Below the pieces are notes generated by a model that saw only the letters and a list, made by a program, of their open reading frames with translations, was not told the DNA's origin and made no database searches. Both the position numbers and the translations under genes were made by a program. Shown here piece after piece: positions 1,108 through 30,608 of a stretch of DNA of 64,000 nt. Position 1 is the stretch's first letter. Every line of letters begins with the position of its first letter. The stretch is from Polytrichum commune (lineage: Eukaryota > Streptophyta > Polytrichopsida > Polytrichales > Polytrichaceae), in the NCBI GenBank assembly GCA_950295325.1, contig OX485803.1, positions 36,597,554-36,661,553 of the forward strand, read 5' to 3'.

Positions 1108-1317
1108 ACAACACAATCAATAGAGCTCAACATCAGTTATCTCCAAAGAAAGAAAGAACATATACCATGCGCACATATCTGCCACTTACACAAACACAAA
1201 CACAAGCCCAAACACAAACCCAAACCCAAACCCAAGCACAGTTTTTGGTGGGTTCAAAAGAACCCTAAATTTTTTATTGATTTTTTTGGGTTTTTTTCAA
1301 GTCATGGGTTAGACAGC

Positions 1318-3700
<2,383 letters not shown>

Positions 3701-4037
3701 GTTTTTATTTTTTCAAATTTTCAGAGGGAACTGGTGATGACTCATCACCATTTCCATCCGTCCGAGTGTTGTATTATGGATGACATAGTGCATATATTCA
3801 TCCAATATCAGGACGGACTCTGTCTTCCTGAAGAAACCCAATGTTTCATTTGGGAAAACTACTTCAGTATCTCAAATAAAGCAATTAAAACGATTAAATA
3901 CTAATGTCGGCCAAATTTAGCCCCACAGAACAATGATAGGTACAATCACAATTGAATATCTTCATTGTAATTTGATTCATTTCAAGCTTTGCAATCCCAT
4001 CATACTCTATAGTTGGTGAATTACACTATGATGTAGT

Positions 4038-4441
4038 AGGTAATCGTTTTATTGGAAAGGTTATCGGTGCAGAACCGGTTCTGTCAAGGTGGCGAGCCCG
4101 CGAGGTCGAGCCAACTAGACAGAACCCGTTCTGCACTAATGACCGGTTCCAATAAAACAATTACCGGACGTAACCGGTTGGCCGCTTTGTTGAGCCGCGC
4201 AGGTGACCTAAACAGTGGGTCACATGTTGAAATTTGAGCATCCTTAAAATGCCACGTGTCGGAATAGTTCTCATATTCGTTTCAAATTGCTTATAAGCGA
4301 CTTTAAGTGATTCTATAATCTGTCTATATCCGATTTAGATCATAACCGGTTGGGATGTCGAGGTTATCGTCTGCAAACCTGTGTGCTCAGAGCCAATCGT
4401 GTAGTGCCACCTCGGCGAAACAAAGCGGCCAACCGGTTACG
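4038..4441 (+). mobile_element. 404-bp non-autonomous element with two nested hairpins, copy A
   Basis: This element matches 46509-46912 in inverted orientation over exactly the same length. It consists of a 5' hairpin (about 4038-4165; arms contain GTAATCGTTTTATTGG and CCAATAAAACAATTAC) followed by a body flanked by the arms CGTAACCGGTTGGCCGCTTT (from 4169) and AAAGCGGCCAACCGGTTACG (to 4441). The duplicated locus near 10815 lacks it, so it inserted after or during divergence of the H3.3 segment. There is no meaningful reading frame and no clear target-site duplication. Confidence 0.8.
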
Positions 4442-5010
4442 GTCTAGCAGAATCTTCTTCACAACATATCCGTTCACAAGAATTCATAGGAGGCTTCGTT
4501 TCAATTGAGTATTGGTTGATGACCTTGGTTAAAACATTGGCTACAATAGGCTTCCCACAAAAGCAAATTAACCTCTCCAGGTAATCCTACATGTACGGGC
4601 AGTAAACAACAATGTAAGGTGGAGGCACAACATGGCATGCATTATATGGCCCCACTTTTCAGCTATATTCATTGTAATTGTCTTCAGCAAATATTCATAG
4701 GTTGGCAACTTGGCAGTGAGGGCTTCAATATTTCTTGTTTCTTTTTTCTTTTTCTTTCATTCTTTTCTTTTTTGGGGGGAGGGGAGAGTAATTGTCTTAG
4801 GTTTGGGTTTTATTTTCTTTATGCAAGAAGTTGGAGCAACTTCAAGAAAGAAAAAGAAAAAGACAAAGACAAAGATCAAAGGCAATTGATATGTAAGCCT
4901 ATTTCCATTTGGGTTACTATAATGTTATGCCATTTTTCCCTATGTTGTCTCGACTCACGAACACCCTTAGAAGATTATGAAGTAGAGTGGAGAATCTAGC
5001 TTCAAGTGTA

Positions 5011-5470
5011 TTGCTTGTTTGTAGCTTTTAGCAACAAACATTGGCCACCCACACTTTACTCAAGAGACCAAAAACCATGAATAACTGCATATTTCCATTA
5101 AGAAGTGCAATTTTGCAAAACGGCATAAAACTTCCTTTATTTTCTAAACGAACAAGAAGTAAGTAGTGACGCAACTTTAGGGTTGCTTTACACTACAGTG
5201 GAGAAGTCCACTGGTCAGGAATTCTAGGGGAATTTTGAAATTTGATTGGCCGAGAGTGACACTCTTGTCTGGTGGTGGTTTACACTAGGGCCAAGAGTCC
5301 TTTGGTGGAGAACTTTGTACATGGATGTCAACGTGGCGACACATTTTTGAAGGGGAGTTTTCATGAGGTGAAGTTTCTTGGGCAACCTCAAAGTCTCGGA
5401 CAAGAAACTTGGCCTCCGGAGAACTCCAACTTGAATAAAATATTTCTTCCTTAGAGAAATCTTTGTACTA
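5011..5470. repeat. Gene-free; related to the interior of the 13.7-14.1 kb foldback
   Basis: The stretch about 5185-5440 is similar, in inverted orientation, to about 13800-14095. It shares the segment GAAGTTTCTTGGGCAACCTC and the surrounding order of motifs. No gene was found. Confidence 0.55.
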
Positions 5471-6258
5471 TTGTTCTCCCTCTTTAGTATGACACTTTTG
5501 GGGGGGGGAATACAAAAAAAGTCGTATTATTGAGGTGTCATCTTCTCATTAATATGACAAATGACGTAAAGTTGTCATATTATTGAGGGAATGCGAAAAC
5601 ATAAGTAATATGAGCTTTAAAATATATACAATGAGTTTAAGCACTATAGATGGTATGAAATAATAACCTATAGCTCCAAAAAAATACAAATATTCTCAAG
5701 AACTCTTAAAACAAGAGTCCAAAGATCTTTGGTGTTGCTTACCCAAGTTAGTAATTGTCATCTTATCTAAATTCTCATCTAAGTTTTGGAAACTAATAAT
5801 TTCATTAACACCAAAATATAAAGAGTTCTCTCATAAGAAACTAGACAACAATGATGCATGACCTTTAGCATCAAGATATTGGTGATACTATATCACCCGT
5901 GTACAAGGCAACATACTAGGCAAGAGGCCACTCTCACCCTAACCATGTCCATTCTACACTAGTAACCCTAATTACCATTAAGTTCCCAATAATAAGTGAG
6001 GTTCCCAAGTAGTTCCCAAGTGAAAATGGATGTATTTTAGATGTACATAATATAGATGAAAGGAATTCTAGCATTAACTACCTCTTTAATATGACAAAAC
6101 GGAGATTCTAAATGTTGCATTATCGAGTGTTGTAGTCGTATAAAAGAGGGAGTTTTAAACTAAAAAGTTTGGTCTTGCAAAAATGTGTCATAATATTGAG
6201 GGTGTCATAATATTGAGGGTGTTGTATAAACGAGTGTTGTATTAATGAGGTTGGACTA
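5471..6258. mobile_element. Pogo-like non-autonomous element (788 bp)
   Basis: It is flanked by TA on both sides (5469-5470 and 6259-6260). The ends form an imperfect terminal inverted repeat of about 25 bp, beginning TTGTTCTCCCTC on the left and TAGTCCAACCTC on the right (reverse complement). Just inside the right end is the duplicated motif gtgtcataatattgagg. The interior is AT-rich and has no coding content. Its ends resemble those of the neighbouring element at 6768-7796. Confidence 0.6.
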
Positions 6259-6767
6259 TAGCAACATGTAATTTCTTTACAAAATCAATAAGAAGATAAT
6301 GTTACCTACTTATCTACCTTAATTTGGATGTATTATAGAGGTGGAACATTTTCAAAAAACTCTTTTCATGAAAGAAGTTCTAAAACATTGCCGTATGCAT
6401 TTTTTTATCAATTTTTTTTTAAAATATCAATATAATGGTCATTTAGGGGGTAAGGTTTCGACTATGGCAGGTGAACTTCTCCTCTTGGTGAAGTTGTCCA
6501 ATACACTTCTCCTCTAGGTGGTTACACTGCAGCCGGTCAAGACTTCTTAAGGCATTTTTTTATTAGTTTTTTCATCTTCTCCAACATATCATCCCCCACC
6601 TCAAATAACCATGTCTTGGGCTAAAATTCTTGATGGACCCCGAGGGCGGTTTCAAAGTGTTTTCATAGGAAACCCTAAGAATAACATGTTGGAGCTATTA
6701 ATTGCGCTCGTTTCTCTTTCTACTGTTTCATACAGACACTAATATCAAAGTTTGTGTTATCCAACTA
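6259..6767. other. Gene-free spacer between two pogo-like elements
   Basis: AT-rich sequence with no recognisable gene. It contains the degenerate pair aacttctcctctWggtg at about 6475 and 6507. Confidence 0.5.
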
Positions 6768-7796
6768 CAGTCTAACCTTGATAATGTCACCCTTGTTAAT
6801 AGAACACCTTGATATTGTCACCTAAAAGTTTGAAATCGATTTTCATAGTGTAAAACTCCCTCGTTATTGTCCCTATCACCCTTGATAATGTCACTATTTT
6901 TTTTCAAAATCCGTAGTGTAAATGTGATAATATCAAGTATGGATGGATTGTATGGGTGGGCATGGGTTCGATATTATTGTTCATGGGTGAGCATGGGCTA
7001 AAGCAAAGCATATTGGGGGTCGTTGAATGAGCTCTCATTCAATGCTTTCGGCATAGTGGGATGCCTTGTGTAATTTCAAATTTGGTACGTGTTTCGGAGT
7101 CCAAATGCTCAATTCTACATAACTTACTCGCAGTTGTCTGTAAGTTGAGGCCAAAGGTGGAAGTTCACAAACACACAGATCTTTGCCATGGCCAATGCAA
7201 CTCCAACTCCATCTGCATCTCCACTTTCTCCATGCAGATAATAACACTTTATTCCATGTCGAGTTTTGAAATTTTGCAACCACCCATGAGAAAGCTTGAA
7301 CTCGGTATCATATATGCCAAATGAATCCCTCAATTCCTTAGCCTTTTGCATAATGACATCATCAGTTACTACTCCCCTCCGTGCTCTGACATGTCCAAAC
7401 CATAAAACCAAAGCTTTTTCAAGCTGAGGCCATTTTCCAACTCGAGCGCGTCGTACATTGCCTTCACGCACACATGTATCCATGTTCATCCACTTCTCTT
7501 TTGAACAAAGAATCTTGGAAATAGTGGTCCGATCCACAAGCTTGAATTTATGTTGATCCACCATATACTGTGCAAGGTCTTGTTGTTATTCACAATTTTG
7601 AATTAGATTTTACATTCAAAAACATTGAAGTCTCGTATTTGTTATTTTTTAAAATTGTAATTATATTTTGATTTTCTACATATTTTTTGATAATATCACA
7701 TTATGCACAAAATGTGACATTATCAAGCATGTCACACCTTGTTTATATCACACTTTTTGGTGAAACGGAGGGTGTGACATTATCAAGGTTAGGGTG
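6768..7796. mobile_element. Tigger/pogo-like element with internal deletion (1029 bp)
   Basis: The element is bounded by TA target duplications (6766-6767, 7797-7798). The terminal inverted repeats read CAGTCTAACCTTGATAATG on the left and CACCCTAACCTTGATAATG on the right (reverse complement). The interior retains only the N-terminal DNA-binding part of a transposase (7124-7564, minus); the catalytic DDE region is missing. It sits just outside the left edge of duplication copy 2. Confidence 0.85.
7124..7564 (-). pseudogene. Tigger/CENP-B-type transposase, N-terminal fragment
   Basis: The 146-residue reading frame carries the CENP-B/Tigger double helix-turn-helix pattern. A first HTH remnant ends in ISKILCSKEKW. 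It is followed by a CENPB-type domain with WPQLEKALVLWF and a GWLQNFKTRHGIK segment typical of Tigger and Jerky proteins. The frame upstream of the ATG (codons for QQDLAQY) is also coding-like but is closed by TAA, so the N-terminus is damaged. No catalytic domain follows. It lies inside the TIR-bounded element 6768-7796 and is presumably inactive. Confidence 0.8.
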
Positions 7797-7897
7797 TAGT
7801 ACCATCAAGGTCCTTCAAAGTAGTCTGGTCCATGCAGTTTGAAACAAAACGTAAGTGGTATTGCGAGCGTTGACCAAGAACTCTGACTCACCTTCAC

Positions 7898-11970
<4,073 letters not shown>

Positions 11971-15463: not shown

Positions 15464-18400
15464 TTACTTCGCTTTAGGATTTGATGGTGTTGGAAGCGTA
15501 GAGGAGACATATCTCTCGAGAACGATCGCCTCCCTTTTCTTCTCGTCCGCGTATTCTTCAGGATCCAAAGACCCATCTCGGAAACCTTTCAACAGCGGCT
15601 TGCGAAGTGCAAAGCCTCCGACCGCGTCGCACGGCACAAAGTCGGGGTGGTTACGTGTGATCTTTGCGATCTGCACAGCCTTCGCCTTCTCTTTCAGTCC
15701 AGGCAGCTGCTGCTCTGCAATCTTCTTGGCTGCCTCCTGAATGGAAAGACCAGTGCCCCCTGCCTCGGCATAGATCAGGATCAACGAGTGCAAAAGAGTT
15801 GCTTTGTCTTTACGATCGTCCTCCTCAGCTAACCTGCTCGAGAAATTACATGCGTCCCCATCATGTAGAGGTAAGAAAAACAATTACCATGAATGAATGT
15901 TAACACAACACATCTACACTGATGATAGGTTGCCCCACGCTAATACCATCGATAATAGATTTTTTGCCAAATTTACTTCAACAGTAAATAATTTCTCCTG
16001 TGGTTGCTATGTGGATGAGTAAACAAAGTTATAAGGTTTTGTAATCTGGTGTGATCCCAGGTGATTTCCATGGGTAAAGGGGCAACCGATTCGGGAAGGC
16101 AACCTGATTGCACAAATCTATGTGCATTCACCATTGATTGTGAATCACTGTCACAGAAAGTAATTTAGCAGCAATCACTTTGTACTCCATGTAAGGTATG
16201 CGTGGTTTATATGCTCACTCTTCTGAATTGGACCCCTATGTTTGAGTGCTAAGGTAGATGTGCCTGAATCCAACAACGCAATAATCTGGACATCTATATT
16301 TGAATGGTATGTGGTTAGGTGGGGATCTAGGAACAGACATAAAAAAGACATTTGTTTAGAAGAAATTGGAATCTGTGCTCAAAATATGCTAACCATTCTA
16401 GGTTCAATAGTCAACATAACTGAGGGAATCTATATGACTGCTTGATGACCACTTTGATAATCAATGTGAAATTCAAATGAGCTCCAAAAACTATGAGGCA
16501 AATGGCTATGGGATTGATTTGGTTTTGCTCTTCATCTCGCACCGATTGTGTGTTTCATATCCTATGAGAAGTAGGTGCAGAGAGAGAAGTATCTCATTAA
16601 CGCATGTCTACCTTATATGGCAAGGCTTGTAGTAAAGAATGGACACCAAAATGACTCAGGTTACAATGAGATTGGAATACATGGTCAAAACATCATTCTA
16701 GGTTCAATACCTAGTTAGTGCAATTGGAAAGGTCTATATGATCATTTTGAGAGGGAGAGGAACTTCACTTTGACCACTTATAACTTTTACATATCGTGAA
16801 AGTCCAATTCTGAAACTTGAAATGACACTGTGCCTGATTCATCACAATTGCTCACCAGATGAGGCAATTCCTGGTCCAATCCAACAGCCATAATCGTCTG
16901 TGGAGTTGAAAGTGCCCACAATGGGGCCACACACCTTCCATAAGTTGATGTGGTGGTATAAGTTTGTACAAAATAGGAGGGAGATGGTTACCTGACCGTG
17001 GAGATGCTTCTTCTTTTCTTCAAAGATTCCAGGTCCTCCCTTCAAGAATGCAACGAGCAGTGTGAGGACTGTGTTACCTGGTAGAAGTGGTAGTGGGAAT
17101 TGGCCAACACTACTTGGATGATGGACATCTCTAAATAGAGAAAAAGTGGTAACAAAGTTGCGTGACAATCTTAACGGCACAACAGAGAGCACCTGACAGT
17201 AAATGCACTGATTACGGTAAATACTGTGGGCCACACTATTGAGCCTTTTTCCACACTTCCAACACTGGGGATAATATTGTGGGTGCACACTATTTACCAA
17301 TACTCAGTATTAAACATAAGAGGTCCACGTTGTAGGTATTAAAAATGGAGTGCATGTGAAAGACCTCCAACCTAGGGTCAGGTGGTGATTATATCACTTG
17401 GGCATGACAAGTGTAACTATCTTTGTAGTTAATATGGAAGGGAGGGCAGAGAGCTGGGCACTAGCTCAGGAAAGGAAGTCAGGATTTGACGGCTTACATT
17501 TGATTGTTTGGCTGCTGGGCTTCAGGTATTGGAGGTGAAGTATCTGGCACCCAATTTACACTATCGTGTAGTGAAGGTTTTCTTCCAGGTACAGAAGTTT
17601 CCATGTATTGAACATCAATGCTGTTGATACGAGCTGCCATATTGAAATCCAACATGGACAGACCTCTGAGTGGTGCAGTCATGAGCACAACGGTCACTGT
17701 TTGATAATCTGTCAGATGGAGGTCCTGCCCGAAATTATGCATATTCATAAGTGTCTGTAACGTAATTATCGTCCTCCATCACAATTTTATGCAACACATA
17801 TAGGTCTTACATGCAAATGTGGTAAGTAGTGCAATTATATTGCAAGAATGCGGTAAGTCCTGAATGTCAGGTAATTTGACTAAAGCAAAAAGTCATAACA
17901 CTATCACAATCCAAGGAGAATAAGCTTTGAAATAGGAATCACTCACCGGATGATGACCTGCCTCCTCAGCCAGCTGCGCCACTGAGTTGAAGAATTTGAT
18001 ACCTGCTCACAGCAAGGAATGAAGTTTTCAAGAATGAGGGTACAACCTTCATATTATCTGGTTCCAAACGGTATGGGCAGGAAAGGACTTTACACCCAGA
18101 AGTATGACCCAACATTGATCGTTAAGCACCAGAAATCAGGACATATCAAAATGAGGAGATATAAAGACTCAACCTTCAGAGAAGTCCCTGGTCTGAAATG
18201 TTCTGGATATAAATCTTCTATCTTGTGAGAGCTGCCAATCCGACACAGCCTTCAACCTGTCTTCCAACTCTGTATCTGGTACCAGCTGTGGCCAGTCCAG
18301 TTTCAGTGCATCAACACCACCTTTGCCCACGTCCTCTTTCTTTAATATTTCTGCAGACACACATATCTGTACACTTCAGTAAATGCAGAATGCAAAAAGA

Positions 18401-20776
18401 AATCTCTGTAACTTTGGCATGTCTCTGATTATTCACCCATCATGTATGGCGTTGGTTTACATTTTGATGGACTAGCTATGAAAATCATATTTTTAATATT
18501 CATGATTGGACTTAAATTTGCGAAGCAGTAATCCTCAACATTAATTGGAGTCCCAAAGGTTGGTAGTACAAGAAATGAACACGCTACCTGAGCCAGTTTG
18601 AGAGCCATCTGCTTGAGGACTTATGTACCCAAGTCTGCAATACAGTGAACTTCTTAGAGCAGCCCGTGCAAGTAAAATCCCATGAGTAGATACTTCTCAT
18701 TAGAAGGTAGCAATAACAGGTGGAGAACCCTTGCACCCAGGGAACACAAATACTTTGCGTCAACAAAGTCTATATGCAGTACCTAGAGATACTATACTTT
18801 AGCCAGAATATGAGCTTGAACCAGATTCACCTAGGTGTTGAGAGGAGGCTCACAAGTGGGGATTCTCCTTCATCCATTTTGGAGAGTACTGCACATCACT
18901 TTCGTCAATACGTATGGCTAAGTTGAAGTCCTGGAGGGAAAGGCCTTGCACAGCAGGCGTGGATAGCACCAAACTGACATTTCGAGAGTCTGTCAAGTGC
19001 AAATCCTGCTCAACTTCAAATGTCACAATGTTGTCTTGAGGAGAAGCTAAAAGTAGATTGGACAATGCTTATGAAAACATTGGACCCTGGATATGGTTTT
19101 AAGGCCATGCTAGAGCTGTCTGTGTTGTTCGCCAGCTTTGACAGGGCTCACCTGGTGAATCAGTCTTTCAATTCTACCATAACCTAGTTGGCAAAGGTAG
19201 AAGGTGTCCAATCCCCACCCCCTTACTTGAAGCAAGAAACCTTCAGAATGCCAAACTTGTGTTGTGCAAATAGGGAATTAACCTGTGGAAAATGGCCAGA
19301 ATAAATGTGAAAATGAAGGCCTATGAGTCATCACTTTCAACTCCCTAAAACTAATGGAAAGACTTTGACATAGGGTTGGAGACGCTGCAAATCTCTGGGC
19401 ATAGTATTGCTGACCTTGCACTAGGCAAGGTTACAAGTTACGAGGGTCCCTAGTTTGTCTTAGCCATGTCTCAGCGATGTCATGCATTACAATGAGTTTT
19501 TTAGGGTTTACTCTCTTCAACAAACCGAATCACAAAGCAATGCAGATGACAAAGGTGATTCATGACCTGAATCAATGGACCCAATGGTCAAAATCCACAG
19601 CTTGCACAATCCAGAGAAACTGCAATCAGGTTCCCTCCTAACAACAAAGTAGTGAACATCTAGACATTAATGGTACATTCTCAAGAGCAGGGTTAGTGGT
19701 TTTACTGGATGATGACCCTCCACCTCTGCTAATTGTGCAATTTGGTTGAAAAACTTCAGACCTGTACAACCATGTCATGGTCCTCCATTACATAGGTGCT
19801 AAAGACAAACTTGAAAGAGCAAAGACAACATAAGAGATGTTAAAAGTAGGACACTATCGACGTAACTATTTTATACAGTAGGGAGGTTCGCAACAATTGA
19901 AGGATTTGAAAAATTATTCATGAAGAATGAGATTCAGTGAATTTGCTGCTTCCTCTGTGTACTGCAGCAATTGTATAAGAACTATCAGAAGCTCACCTTC
20001 AGCAAAGCTCTTGGCCACAAATGTCCGAAATATACTTTTCCTGTCCGGGGCAAGCTCCCAGAGAGGAATTCCCTTCATCCTTTGCTCACAATCCTCAGCC
20101 GATAACTGGAAACAACATTTCAGAACGGCAATGAGTCAGTCAGATGCAAATATTCATCATATTTCAATCTTAGTGGATGTGACCATCGCAAACACAGCAC
20201 ATTACCAGTAACAAATTCTCTTCACAAATATGAGCTCTCTCCACCTCAATTTTAGGTCATGCTCAGCCCAGAATTATCTTGCAGCCACCCTTAATCCACT
20301 ACACTCAGACGAGCTTTGATGAGGATCCAAACATCTATCTCTGTGTCAATGTTTAGATCAATGAACATGTCTTGTCTTATACTTCTGAAAACTGATGACT
20401 TTTTCGTGAATTTACCACGCGGAACGAATGACTCACACCTACAAGTACAAACCGTGCAACTGACATTTGGAAAAAAATACTCTAGTAACATGTCATAAGT
20501 CCTCATTTGTAAACCTCAGTCAAATATGCTACCCCCCTAACCTTCTTTGATTCCTTCCGCTGTTTAAGCTTCCATTCTCCCCATTCCACACATCCAATCA
20601 TTTACTTCACTCTCGTGCCTCACACAAGGAGATCAAACAATTTCAAGTGCTTCGACTCCATGTCAGTGAGTAGAATTCTAATTTCTCATCAAGTATAGCG
20701 AGCAGCCTGACCACTAATTATAAGCAGAATATTGTATATTTACCTGGGTGAGATTGACGTCGAAGTCGCCTCCCAT
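15464..20776 (-). CDS. Two-PCD-domain protein with C-terminal winged-helix-like region
   Basis: The nine exons are 20744-20776, 19997-20105, 19706-19761, 18854-19005, 18588-18634, 18174-18350, 17947-18002, 17498-17724 and 15464-15833. They sum to 1227 nt (408 residues) with every junction GT-AG and in phase. Residues about 11-115 and 150-260 are pterin-4a-carbinolamine dehydratase (DCoH/PCD) domains. Each has the pattern KFFN...AQLAE...GHHPDLHLTD, and each has a 56-nt exon carrying that core, so the second domain arose by internal duplication. Both keep HHP, but the third catalytic His of animal PCD is Pro in domain 1 and Ala in domain 2. The last exon (DRKDKATLLHSLILIYAEAG... then GGFALRKP) looks like a HARE-type winged helix; that call is tentative. 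No organelle leader is seen, so a cytosolic or nuclear location is likely. A recycling or coactivator role is inferred only. Confidence 0.75.
15834..17497 (-). other. Intron 8 of the PCD-domain gene, with repeats
   Basis: A 1.66-kb intron. It contains one full (about 16230-16630) and one partial (about 16630-16930) copy of a dispersed repeat also seen near 27300, 40786 and 53555. An open minus-strand stretch at 16842-17300 lies largely within repeat-like sequence. It could not be joined in phase, because the next frame opens with TAA. Confidence 0.6.
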
Positions 20777-21276
20777 TGTAAAAACAAGATGTAAGGCAAG
20801 ATCAGGGGCTTACAGAAAGGGCTTAATTTAGGCAATGTGGACAATGAATTCTATGGAAGGATAAGTAGTGTATGTTCTTCACATGAAGGCCAAGCTTAAG
20901 TTAGCTTTCCGGATAGCAAAGCTTGCCATAGCTTTTCCACTCTCGATGAGATGTTTCTGTCGCTTCACTCCCAAAGGTTTCACTTCCAAACTTTTCCCAA
21001 TACCTAAATAATAACAGTATCTACCTAATAATATCCCTGCATACGGAACGTCCATCGATGACATACGCCTTTCGTCGCCATCCATTCATCCGCCTTTCAA
21101 TGTCCTAAAGCTGTGGCCAATTTTGGGTCACACATACAACACTGCACAACAGTCCATCCGCAATCCATAACACCAACGCAAAACCCAAAAACCCAAAAGC
21201 CCCAACAACTCAACATTCTCACGTAAAGCACATCAGCAGCACCACCGAAATTTGTCTCCCTCCACCACGAGCAACA
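20777..21276. promoter_or_regulatory. Shared 500-bp head-to-head intergenic region
   Basis: The minus-strand PCD-domain gene starts at 20776 and the plus-strand peroxiredoxin Q gene at 21277, so one 500-bp interval must hold both promoters and leaders. No clear TATA box was recognised. The stretch 21175-21270 is C- and A-rich with no thymine runs, as expected of a plant leader. A minus-strand open frame at 20879-21085 could be an alternative first exon, but this is unsupported. Confidence 0.6.
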
Positions 21277-24660: not shown

Positions 24661-25365
24661 TTACTCCACCTTCTTGACCTTTACATCCTCCTCGGAGGAT
24701 GAGGCGGACCTGTATGCGACAATTTGGGAGACCATCACTCCATTTGTGAGAATCCCCAGCACGCTCCCAACCACCATGCTCACAGGAGCCTTCTCCTGAA
24801 TGCTTGTGAACGTGCGCACCAAGCAACCCGCAAACGACATGAAGTTTGTCAGGAAACTCAACTGCCCCGTGCTCTTGGCTTGGAAGTTTTGATAGATTTG
24901 TGGGAGCTTGGCACCAAAGAAAATGGCATGCTGGCACGCATACAGCGCCTCGAAGAGCGTCGGGTCCAACTGGCCTGCGAGAAGGCTCGGGGCCAGCGCG
25001 CAGTAAAGAGCAGATTTGACCACCATCCCAGGGCCTTTCTTAGGGGAGTAATAGTAAATCAGTGCCAGACATACCAGACATTGCAGCAAAATGAAGAGAA
25101 GCTCGCCATACGCCGAGAACGGAAGCTTCTTGAACAAACAGTAGGCCAATGCAATGGTGAAACCTGCGACTTCGAGCTCAAATGATGCCACATTCAACCC
25201 CTTGATGCTCCTGTTCTTCACAATCACAAAGATCTGTGGCACCTTGAGAAGCACTGAGCCAAACACTATGCAGTAGCCTAACACCTTGGACAACACTGGA
25301 AGCACACACTCTTTTGTAGGCATGTGGTAGTTCTCCATGGACTCTATCAAACATGACACATCCAT
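24661..25365 (-). CDS. MPDU1-like PQ-loop membrane protein
   Basis: This is a homologue of mannose-P-dolichol utilization defect 1, an ER membrane protein needed for use of dolichol-linked mannose and glucose in N-glycosylation and GPI-anchor assembly. The frame is a single uninterrupted exon of 234 residues, close to the family length. The start chosen is the ATG at 25365; in-frame codons further upstream contain no other ATG. Both PQ-loop motifs are present, at residues 43-44 (LKVPQIFVIVKNRSIKGLN) and 155-156 (KLPQIYQNFQAKSTGQLS), each within the expected hydrophobic helices. About seven hydrophobic segments span the protein and it ends in a charged tail (SSSEEDVKVKKVE). It converges with PrxQ. 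Lack of introns is unusual next to the intron-rich neighbours. Confidence 0.92.
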   Translation of the reverse strand: MDVSCLIESMENYHMPTKECVLPVLSKVLGYCIVFGSVLLKVPQIFVIVKNRSIKGLNVASFELEVAGFTIALAYCLFKKLPFSAYGELLFILLQCLVCLALIYYYSPKKGPGMVVKSALYCALAPSLLAGQLDPTLFEALYACQHAIFFGAKLPQIYQNFQAKSTGQLSFLTNFMSFAGCLVRTFTSIQEKAPVSMVVGSVLGILTNGVMVSQIVAYRSASSSEEDVKVKKVE

Positions 25366-27289
25366 ATTTGCAAAGGCAATGCCCTCACTTAAACCCAACA
25401 CAAAAACCCCACACCAGGAAGCACAGAACTTGAAACCCTAAAATCTCAAATCCTCAACAATATGAGATATATCCCTACAGATCCTCGACGCATGCTCCTC
25501 CTTACCCTAAGATCTGCTACCAAAACCCTCAAATTTGTAGCAGCTTCTCTAGTCTTATGTGTTTTTAAGTGTGTCTGTGCGTCAAAACCAATGTGATGAC
25601 CTAACTTTCTTCTGCAACGTGTTTCTTTTGATATTTCTTCGCATTAACTTAGAAGCGAACTGCAAAATGCTACAAGCTTGCATCAGGTGGAAGAAATGAT
25701 GCAACAAAACAGACCAAAAGCGCAGTCCACTTTCTAATTCAACCGATTCACAATGTTCAAGTCCGATTCAACCACTTCATTGCATTGGAGGCACGCGCAA
25801 GAAAATTTCAAGGATGAGGAGAGTTTGGTGGATTTTGGGTCCACAGAGTTGGGGCTATTTTCGATCGAGGCTGGCAGTAGCGACATGTAACAGGTTTCAT
25901 ACGTATATGTACATTTCTAGGTCTGAAAATGTACATATTAGAAGAAAATTGTTCATAAAAATCTATGAGCAATTTCACTTCAAGAATTCAAAAGATACTC
26001 ATGGTGACTTGAAAACATACCTACACTTATCATCCCAATTAGTGTGTGTGATACTCATTCCCAAAACACGCACTATTTTGTCAAGTCTCAAAATTAGTGA
26101 GGGTTGGAAATTTTTACCGAGCGATACTTAAATTTATGAATACATGCTCATTTACCATACATTTCAAAGAAAATTAATGTGTGCTCTAAGGTGCTTGCAG
26201 AGTGGATAAGAAGAAATAAATGCAAACACATGTTCATCCGTGAATAGTGCCAAGATGAATAATGTGAGTGCTTTCAGTGAATAGTGTTGCTATGAATAGT
26301 GTCAAGATGAACAATGCTTCTTGTATCTTTTGGTGACGTTAATTTCATAGCGTAAAGAAATTTAGCATCACCATCACGAATCTCCCACACACTTTTAGCC
26401 CTCCCTCACCAATTGGGATAATCAGTGTAGTAAGCCCACCCCTTGCGTTCTAAATATAGAAATAAATACTTACACATTGCCAAGAATCGATGAAAGTTGT
26501 GGGATTTTTGTGATATGTAATTTGAGTGCACCTATCATGAATTGTGACTTATAATAAATTCTATGCATATGTATTTTTTAAAGTTAAAAATGGACATGTA
26601 TGAAAATTGTACATATATGTAATCTATGATTGTCACGTCAAGAAATCATTGATATTCACTTTGACTTCAACAGTAGTAAGTTTAACTCTCAAGGTCCTTG
26701 TTTGGATTTGCTTAACATGTGCATGTGTAACTTGTTGTTTTTTTAATCAAACCTCTATGTATTTTGATATATATAAAAGTGGCCATAAATAGGTGCATCC
26801 ACCTTATGGTTGTTTTGCTTTGCTTTGTTTTATACTTGAGATTTGTTTTGTATATTACTATATGTATTAACAATCTTTCAAACTTCTTATTATGACCACA
26901 AGAAATTCTAACTCATTTTGTCACGCAACCCTCAGTCATGCATGTAAAAACGGCCCCTAGTTTGAGATGATTAGCAATTCCAAATCAAGATTGCAACCAC
27001 TTCCCTCATGGTTTTTAGAGTGCATATCATGGATATTTAGTTCTCTATCAAAGCTCACGTTCTCTTTCTTCTTGATTGATCATTTATCCACCACCCCTCC
27101 CCCCCCCCACACACACACACTTATGTTCACTTTATAATTGTTAACAATGTTTGAGCTAATCTCTCTAAACATCCATGATTTTGGAGTACGTTCTTATGTC
27201 CAACACCTGACTACACACCACGTCAAATTCTAGGAGTTTAATTAAGATAAGGAAGGTGTGTTGACCTTATGTGGTCACTTTTTGTAGCT
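25366..27289. other. AT-rich intergenic region
   Basis: There is no gene. It contains a short internal repetition near 26240-26320, where GTGAATAGTG and AAGATGAA-AATG motifs recur. The promoter of the PQ-loop gene should lie just right of 25365. Confidence 0.5.
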
Positions 27290-27540: not shown

Positions 27541-28290
27541 GTCCTTCACCCTTAAAGGGCGCTAATGGTTTCTTGAAAGTGAGGTGACCTAAGGTGCACA
27601 AATTTTAATGTGTAAATCTTGTTCAAAAGATTCCCATTCATACAATTAGAATCTAAATAAAACATATTGACATGGCAAAAATCCACATGTAAGATTTTGA
27701 TTGCGAGTTTTAATAAACAATGCGTATCAAGCCCATATCAAGGCACAATATATAAAAGATTGCATCCCAAGGCCCAAACTAATGTTTGCACAACATAGTT
27801 TGAAGGGGTGGGAAAAAGACAATCATGTGTAAGGTAGAGGCTCATATTTCCGAGCGGGTTGTAATTCCGACCCCTACGAACAGTGTCAGCTGACCAGAAG
27901 GTGACTTGGGGGGAGCGCAAAAGCGACCACAGAGGTGCTTTTAGGCGTCATGGTCGGTTATAGGTCCTTCCTTAGTTGGGGTGGGGGGTCTCTGTGGATG
28001 AAAAATGTAGGGTCGTTGAGCGGAAACCGGATCCTAGGCGGTTGAGGTTAATTCCTTGCGGCTCATAAATTGAACATATTGGGGGGTGATTTTTGAATAA
28101 AGATGATCATTTTTGGGAACCACAACGTGGGCTTAGAGTGACGGTTTGCTCTTAATTAAAAGCCATAGGGAACAATTGTGCCTATAAGTTTGGTTGGTTG
28201 TGTGAGCAAAGGAGGCAGTTTTGGAGGGTTAGGAAGGAGCGGACTAAGGTTATTAGAGGAGGAGTTCTAGATGCATCAGGAGTGGAGCAA
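27541..28290. other. Region upstream of the pogo-like transposase
   Basis: No gene. The reading frame stays open from 28198 without an ATG until 28291. I found no TA-flanked inverted repeat matching the right side of the transposase gene. Confidence 0.4.
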
Positions 28291-30608
28291 ATGGAGAGGA
28301 TGGAGGGGTTTGAGAGTAGCCAAGATTTTGTGCAAGAAATACAGTTTGATGCACAAGAGTTATGTTATGGCCAGAGTCCAGAGGATAGTCTAGGCTTTGA
28401 GGACTACATGACAAGAACTCAGCATGGAGCAAGAGCTAGATATAGAAATTCTCAACCAACCTTGCATTTCAATTCCAATGGCCATGAGGGTCTGCATAGA
28501 GGTCACAACAATGTAGTCGGAGAGAGTGGAGGAGACATGAGGTATAACCTGAGAAATGGTACATCTACTTGGACACCATGCATACAAGGCACTTCTAGGA
28601 TTAGGGAAGAAGGGGAGAACATCAATATGGGGATCCACGAAGGAGGGGATGGTGTGCCACAAAGTCAGCAGGAGGAGCAAGGCATTCAATCAAGGGCTCC
28701 AATCAAGAAGACAGGAAATTGGACAAGTGCACAACTTCAACAAGCATTGGATGCAATTACAGATGAAGGCATGAAGATACGGACAGTATCTCGCAAGTTT
28801 GGTATTCCCCCAACCTCTCTTAGAGATCATTTGTTTGGCACAGTTTTGGGAAGGAAGAGAGGGCCAAAAACTGTCCTAAATGAAAGTGAGGAAAAAAAAT
28901 TGGTAGACTATTGTTTTAAGATGCAGGAATTGGGCCACCCTTTAACTCCACTGCAACTGAAGTTGAAGGTGACACAAACTACTCAGACTAGGGATACCCC
29001 CTGGAATGACATTGGAGTCCCAGGAAAGTCATGGTTGAAGTCCTTTAGACAAAGGCATCCTGAACTAGTTGCTAGGAAGAGCCAACCCTTAGAACTTGGT
29101 AGGGCTAGGGGTTTGTACCCAAATACTGTGGCAACTCTATACTGCAATCTAAAATACTTGTACAATACCTTCAAGTACCGTGCTGGACACATCTGGAACT
29201 GTGATGAATCTGGTGTACAAGCTGGGAGGAGTGGAGGGGCCACAGTGCTTGCAAAATTGGGCTCCAAATCGGTACACACCATTGAGCCAGATCAGAGGGA
29301 ACACCTATCAGTTCTATCATGCATCAATGCTGAAGGGGGTAAAATTCCTAACTTCTACATCTTGAAGGGTACATATTTCTTGAAGGACTATGTTGGCAAG
29401 TGTGAGCCAGATGCAGTGATGGCTATGCAGCCCAATGCATGGATGACGAAATGGCTCTTCCAATCATGGATTTTACATTTCATAGGGACTTTGACCAAAA
29501 CAGTGGGAATTAGTGCAGAAAACAGACATTTACTTGTGCTGGATGGCCATAATTCACATGTAACTCTAGAAGTCGTGACATTGGCTATGAATTCAGGGTT
29601 AGACATCATTTCACTACCATCCCATACTTCCCATACCTTACAACCTCTGGATGTCTCATGTTTCAAGCCATTTAAGACTGCCTTCAGACAAATTAGAGAC
29701 TCTTGGACCCTGCTCAACAAAGACAAGAGGGTGGAAAAACAGATATATGTGAGTGGACATCCCAAGCACTTGAAAAATCACTCACAACAAAGAACATAAA
29801 GTCTGGTTTCAGAAAAACTGGGATATGGCCATTTAATGAACATGCAGTTCTAGGAAGCATGCAACCAAGCAGAGGATTCGAAGAGGGGCAGGAGGGCTAT
29901 GTTCCCTCTGTGATTGATGAATCAGAGGGGGAGGAATGTGTGCATGGCGAGGAATCTGGGGGTGGCGGGAATTCTGTTGGGGGGTTGGTTTTAGGTGACC
30001 AAGGCGACCACGAACAAGATGAAGACCATGACGATGACGGTGACGATCAGGGCGGGTATAGAGCCTCTGCAGGGGGCTGCAGAGGGGTGCAACACATTGG
30101 AACCAGAATCGAGGAACCTGTAGCCATAGGAACAGCCAATGTCAGTCGGCATTTCTATGTTGACGTCCAAAATCCAGAAGAGAGCAACTATGACAGAGCA
30201 GAGCAGCACATTGTAATAGATCCGGGATTCTTAGCAGAGGTTCAGACATCAAACGATAATAACATACTGCAGTTCTTGTCATTGCCTGAGCTAATCCCTG
30301 CCAAAAAACGAAAAAGACAGCAGCCTCTGCTGGACTTCACACAGAGCATCATTCTAACATCCAAAGATTACAGCAAGGGTCTAGAGGAGATTTTGGCTAA
30401 AAAAGAAGCAACTGCGGCTGCTGCACTGAAAAGGAAGGAGGAGAAGGAGGCCACAAAGGAGCAGCGCAAGGCACAGAAAGAGCAGCAACAAAAGGAGAAA
30501 GAGGATCGGGCGAAAGCAAGGGCTGAAAACAAAAAAAAAACTCGAAGCTCAAGCCAGAAGGGGCGTACCTGCAGCGCGCCCCCGAAGGGGTCGAGGAAAC
30601 TCGGCTGA
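28291..30608 (+). pseudogene. Pogo-like transposase broken by a one-base frameshift
   Basis: This is a Tc1/mariner-superfamily (pogo) cut-and-paste transposase. From the ATG at 28291 the frame runs to 29799. It has a psq-type helix-turn-helix at residues about 144-180, a CENPB-like segment, then a DDE_1 domain with its Asp triad visible at about 305 (WNCDESG), 418 (VLDGHNSH) and 454 (LQPLDV). After a run of five A (29735-29739) the homologous frame shifts by one and continues (CEWTSQALEKS, SGFRKTGIWPFN) to the stop at 30606-30608. One extra A would give a single frame of about 772 codons. The C-terminal 100 residues are Lys/Glu-rich and coiled-coil-like. No terminal inverted repeats were recognised. 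It could be a recent pseudogene, an assembly error in a homopolymer, or slippage-expressed. Confidence 0.85.

Follow-up and report, generated by a model that had tools for sequence, protein, structure and literature searches.

The stretch of Polytrichum commune DNA analysed here (64,000 nucleotides (nt), hereafter the window, to which all coordinates without a prefix refer) carries on its minus strand, from position 20776 down to 15464, a gene predicted to encode two PCD/DCoH domains followed by a C-terminal tail of a different family. In-silico splicing of nine exons (Table 1), those proposed by an earlier sequence-only reading of the window, gives 408 amino acids (aa) and a stop without any break of frame, and all eight introns are of the GT-AG type with compatible phases throughout. 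The nine-exon model is an open, splice-consistent sequence: this copy of the gene is free of stops and frameshifts over 1227 nt and its splice sites are intact. The PCD domain starts, as judged by eye, about 11 residues past the initiator Met.

Table 1. Exons of the PCD fusion gene and its longest intron, in window coordinates.
Feature	Position	Strand	Content
Exon 1	20744..20776	-	ATG start, MGGDFDVNLTQ; in-frame stop upstream of the ATG (open reading frame 20714..20809)
Exon 2	19997..20105	-	N-terminal part of PCD domain 1
Exon 3	19706..19761	-	56 nt; core of PCD domain 1, ends EGHHP
Exon 4	18854..19005	-	C-terminal part of PCD domain 1; Ser at motif Y/W/F, Pro at H/W
Exon 5	18588..18634	-	Linker, without Met
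Exon 6	18174..18350	-	Linker and N-terminal part of PCD domain 2, without in-frame Met
Exon 7	17947..18002	-	56 nt; core of PCD domain 2, ends AGHHP
Exon 8	17498..17724	-	C-terminal part of PCD domain 2 (motif Tyr kept, Ala at H/W) and linker
Intron 8	15834..17497	-	1664 nt, longest intron; possible alternative ATG-first exon 16941-16856
Exon 9	15464..15833	-	HARE-like domain (about residues 296-367) and tail; stop TAA; without Met inside

The predicted protein as a whole scores 162.4 bits with PF01329 (cut-off 26, E 2.9e-48) in a Pfam scan, which places this family in two stretches and reports nothing else, confirming the two PCD domains (hereafter D1 and D2) that had been assigned by inspection. 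Two of the five NCBIfam PCD models also scored above their cut-offs, NF002017 with 128.6 bits (cut-off 80) and NF002018 with 115 (cut-off 108). D1 and D2 are identical at 50 of 91 positions (55%, E 7e-39 for the single comparison) and have both intron positions in common, exons 3 and 7 each measuring 56 nt, with entry phase 1 and exit phase 0. For phylogenetic comparison, 82 bacterial relatives were found and 80 kept; these were picked by similarity to D2 and constitute neither a random sample nor a census. A tree of 84 rows and few columns was built from D1, D2, type-1-like and type-2-like PCDs from the same genome and all 80 bacterial loci; it groups D1 with D2 at 100/99. This is the only firm grouping in the tree; the type-1-like and type-2-like PCDs pair elsewhere, in a join flagged as a possible long-branch effect. 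Because of the 55% identity, the common intron positions and the 100/99 pairing, the data point firmly to D1 and D2 having arisen by internal duplication, as the matching 56-nt core exons had suggested at the outset. A tandem PCD within one open reading frame (ORF) occurs at none of the 80 similarity-picked bacterial loci.

Naponelli et al. are said to have described, in 2008, a PCD catalytic motif of the form [EDKH]x3H[HN][PCS]x5-6[YWF]x9[HW]x8-15D, and it is this pattern against which the domains were compared. Neither half of the fusion matches it: D1 has Ser at the Y/W/F position and Pro at H/W, and D2 keeps the Tyr and has Ala at H/W. Both D1 and D2 retain HHP. By comparison, the pattern is present in 79 of the 80 bacterial relatives (L091 being the exception, in a set chosen for resemblance to D2) and in the type-1-like PCD of the genome, and is likewise not matched by the type-2-like PCD. 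In all five of the PDB alignments shown, the residue opposite the Ala of D2 is His (four) or Trp (one). We read this as dehydratase activity that is altered or lost in D1 and D2, with a pocket that is possibly intact.

The remainder of the genome was searched with the PF01329 profile, which returned three places, the type-1-like gene not among them. That gene, on C2 (L024), is a weak match to D1 (E 0.36) and was recognised and spliced by eye; as far as spliced, it has one PCD domain, a complete motif and different intron positions around the HHP core. D1 and D2 therefore have a gene structure common to each other and not to the type-1-like gene, whose introns sit elsewhere. The type-2-like gene (L002, on C3) is a separate locus and has no HHP. 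A Biopterin_H locus (aromatic amino acid hydroxylase) lies on C2 as two PF00351 matches 1.4 kb apart, the larger of which is interrupted in its matched frame by one TGA that may mark an intron edge. Since this locus is present, a canonical PCD would have a use in this genome, and since a motif-complete type-1-like PCD exists alongside it, the classic PCD reaction need not rely on the fusion protein. One further PCD-like sequence, L001 (C2:62033669-62033854), crosses the usual intron positions unspliced and contains a TGA, and is probably a processed, broken copy.

The C-terminal 122 aa, encoded by exon 9, have no Pfam match at E<=10. A search of the genome with the exon 9 protein sequence gave nine places at E<=10. 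Besides exon 9 itself, these comprise seven ORFs 309-371 aa in length, with E from 4.1e-6 to 0.48, and a single weak match (E 9.2). A genome search with the WRC model (PF08879) gave 13 matches, with all seven tail-bearing ORFs among them, and the five of these that were scanned with Pfam each contain WRC (5/5) and none a HARE domain (0/5). An eight-sequence alignment of the tail domain contains eight invariant columns (L, G, G, G, L, E, Q, F). By this evidence the tail is a family domain, placed N-terminal to WRC in the seven ORFs and C-terminal in the fusion, and no Pfam model reports it here. WRC itself was not detected in the fusion, for which Pfam reports PF01329 alone, and WRC-type spacing (C-x9-C-x10-C-x2-H) has no match in the six frames of the window. 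Four of these tail-bearing WRC ORFs form a local gene cluster that spans about 90 kb at C5:6094736-6183329.

HARE was chosen for comparison with this family because the sequence-only reading had likened the tail to HARE-type winged helices and because the genome search found one PF05066 domain. This sole domain lies on C6 in two exons, matched at E 8.7e-5 and 0.53, which were joined to serve as the target. Aligned to it with hhalign, the eight-sequence family profile obtained a probability of 67.9% (E 4.8e-5, score 29.7, 35 columns), a score reached by none of 200 shuffles (best 17.2) and by none of 250 ORF segments from the bacterial loci (best 19.8), the segments being drawn from stop-to-stop frames of at least 250 aa in all six frames, some of which may be spurious and not proteins. 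With the fusion's own row removed, the family profile still scored 28.4, against 18.9 for the best of 200 shuffles. None of the 32 genomes behind the 80 bacterial loci provided HARE domains with which to widen the profile. A PDB search with the eight-sequence tail profile returned eight matches, of which the best, S100-A10, has an E of 0.22 and was taken as chance. A relation between tail and HARE thus appears likely for the family and weaker for the fusion's own tail, so that the proposed HARE likeness retains moderate support: the family profile exceeds all controls, and the Pfam HARE model is silent, the lone sequence is weak and the predicted folds are of low confidence, as detailed below.

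The protein would differ in plan from each of the systems to which its parts can be likened. Both halves belong to PF01329 and align with solved PCD/DCoH chains, but the fusion has two copies per chain, has lost the motif H/W in both and carries an extra C-terminal domain. Plant PCDs have been named type 1 and type 2, type 1 being described as mitochondrial and active (PMC5972614). With type 1 the fusion shares the domain and the HHPDLHL core, whereas L024 has a single PCD domain, keeps the motif and has its introns at other positions. RAF2 (SDIRIP1), a plant type-2 PCD, is described as a factor for Rubisco assembly whose PCD domain is inactive (PMC5859369, PMC5972614), and resembles the fusion as a PCD fold that serves another job without the full catalytic motif; the type-2-like L002, however, is separate, lacks the HHP that D1 and D2 keep, and does not pair with them in the tree, where long branches were flagged. 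Among HARE-HTH proteins (PF05066; ASXL, HB1), the likeness lies in a tail family profile that is similar to the HARE domain of this genome beyond all controls, and the difference in a Pfam HARE model that does not report the fusion tail and a match of 35 columns. Finally, exon 9 aligns with the domain N-terminal to WRC in seven ORFs of the WRC zinc-finger type (PF08879), but the fusion is without WRC. A plant tandem PCD or PCD-HARE protein was not found in the titles and abstract beginnings of the open-licence papers listed, a weak test, since several of the searches listed no paper with PCD terms. To our knowledge, no plant protein with a PCD-PCD-tail plan has been described. By its architecture the fusion appears new to the PCD family, as known from the sequence of one genome.

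We consider, with confidence about evenly balanced, that the gene encodes a DCoH-like scaffold with altered catalysis, linked to a HARE-like module that probably binds DNA or chromatin. Two PCD/DCoH-fold domains that arose by internal duplication would be followed by a HARE-like domain such as that of the seven WRC ORFs. The paired PCD folds may form a covalent, non-enzymatic or weakly enzymatic scaffold for dimerisation or ligand binding, in the manner of DCoH for HNF1 and of the inactive PCD of RAF2 in Rubisco assembly; animal DCoH is described as binding HNF1 and mediating its dimerisation (PMC5859369, PMC5972614). The HARE-like module, as a putative winged helix, would recruit the protein to DNA or chromatin; in ASXL proteins, the HARE-HTH is described as a putative DNA-binding domain (PMC7660087). 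The fusion could then be a nuclear co-regulator, possibly still sensing a pterin, and classic carbinolamine dehydration would fall to the type-1 PCD on C2, which is a separate gene and has the complete motif. A nuclear or chromatin-associated role is suggested because a motif-defective PCD pair occurs together with a HARE-like domain, by the precedents of DCoH, RAF2 and ASXL; everything in this mechanism beyond the domain assignments is what we infer.

This interpretation presupposes that the nine exons belong together. Exons 5, 6, 7 and 9 have no in-frame Met, either within them or upstream as far as the nearest stop, and the second PCD and the tail therefore cannot start there; the Mets of exon 8 lie solely within, or just ahead of, the C-terminal part of the PCD domain. 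From these features the exons of D1 are very probably joined to those of D2 in one mRNA, and exon 9 is likely, with somewhat less assurance, to be joined to the remaining exons, so that we infer a single mRNA with all nine. It would be rather unlikely, though it deserves weight, that exons 1-8 constitute one gene for a tandem PCD without tail, ending just past 17498, with exon 9 part of a separate downstream gene. Such a division is favoured by intron 8 being the longest intron (1664 nt) and containing repeat-like sequence, and by a stop met directly past the exon 8 donor on read-through, but the latter is automatic for phase-2 GTRA donors. Because exon 9 has no Met, a separate gene would require an upstream exon, and its acceptor phase suits exon 8 (a one-in-three chance). 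A crude scan of intron 8 for stop-free stretches that run from an ATG to a GTRAG donor in phase 2 did give one candidate, 16941-16856, that could in principle be the first exon before exon 9; it was identified by these signals and not by homology. One other intron-8 peptide, tried as a possible further conserved exon, matched nothing but itself in the genome, and its ORF had no Pfam match at E<=0.01. A decaying or non-expressed gene is very unlikely: pieces of it have been copied elsewhere (a TAG-containing one of 925 nt to C7, and sequences resembling exon 2 to C1, C2 and C5), but the broken sequences are the C7 copy and the three exon-2 copies that were fetched, and the window copy is intact over its whole coding length.

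A different objection accepts the fusion and sees in it a working two-domain PCD enzyme, in which both domains dehydrate 4a-carbinolamines and the tail is an appendage for stability or interaction. The HHP in both halves, the motif Tyr in D2 and the scores above cut-off for the PCD equivalogs NF002017 and NF002018 (the three other NCBIfam PCD models remaining below theirs) are consistent with it. We nonetheless regard it as improbable, given Pro in D1 and Ala in D2 at the H/W position, as opposed to the bacterial relatives chosen by similarity to D2, which fit the motif in 79 of 80 cases, and to the type-1 PCD of this genome, which fits it too. Several observations weigh against the altered scaffold with a HARE-like module that we prefer. 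The catalytic motif is one reportedly given by Naponelli et al., and the loss of one residue need not end activity in domains that both keep HHP. The nine-exon protein is a prediction from genomic DNA. The HARE comparison used a single target sequence and an hhalign match of 35 columns; the fusion tail by itself gave a probability of 13.1% and a score of 21.2, where the best of 200 shuffles reached 19.3; and the Pfam HARE model (PF05066) was silent at E<=10 on the fusion protein and on exon 9, as it was on the five WRC relatives scanned. Single-sequence fold predictions for exon 9 (122 aa) and for a trimmed version (74 aa) had a mean pLDDT (predicted local distance difference test) of 60.1 and 62.7, and VIA-align found no chain with Z>=5 among 95 for the first model or among 37 for the second. 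Both models have three helices, with two short two-residue strands in the first only. For the first model, Foldseek listed 22 PDB chains at E<=10 and none at E<=0.001; for the second, the best VIA-align rows are HU proteins, whose Z does not exceed 4.2. No HARE or winged-helix chain is among the structure matches listed, which neither supports nor excludes the fold.

If the fusion is indeed a DCoH-like scaffold with a HARE-like module, it would be a hint that an old enzyme has been put to new use as a scaffold in gene regulation. PCD/DCoH is a classic enzyme that moonlights as an animal transcription cofactor, and RAF2 is a plant PCD reused for Rubisco assembly; the covalent union of two motif-defective PCDs with a module that probably binds DNA or chromatin would add a third route of PCD reuse, and a PCD-based regulator in plants would become directly testable. 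A more specific and speculative version, to which we give little credence, is that of a plant-lineage regulator of transcription or chromatin in which the enzymatically silenced PCD pair would act as a built-in DCoH-like dimer, still bind a pterin or a ligand derived from folate, and relay this metabolic state to chromatin through the HARE-like domain that WRC zinc-finger proteins also carry.

Sequences resembling parts of the gene were observed at several other places in the genome. The C7 copy (L018 1657-2564) corresponds to window positions 20521-19597 over 925 columns, covering exons 2-3 and introns at 94.5% identity; its TAG lies in exon 2, and the 8.5 kb retrieved there yielded no further exon of the gene. 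The beginning of exon 2 was matched at four more places (C2:16350229, C5:48473720, C1:21239333 and C1:56593736), which a separate DNA search of the genome did not list. Three of these were fetched; in each, the exon is interrupted by a change of frame and lies in a region of about 250-270 nt with 73-75% identity. They look as if carried by an older mobile or duplicated element. Within intron 8, the stretches 16252-16615 (about 69%) and 16282-16438 have 69-71% identity to stretches within L024, the region of the type-1-like PCD gene on C2, and past its end, and probably represent a dispersed repeat.

Elsewhere in the window, a direct duplication with a spacing of about 6.78 kb extends over 1201-10634, the three 300-nt blocks listed being 96, 98 and 99% identical. 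On the minus strand, 24664-25437 holds an ORF for a PQ-loop protein, with PF04193 in two stretches, and on the plus strand a 547-aa ORF (28156-29796) with Tc5-type DNA-binding and DDE_1 domains encodes a Tc5/pogo-like transposase.

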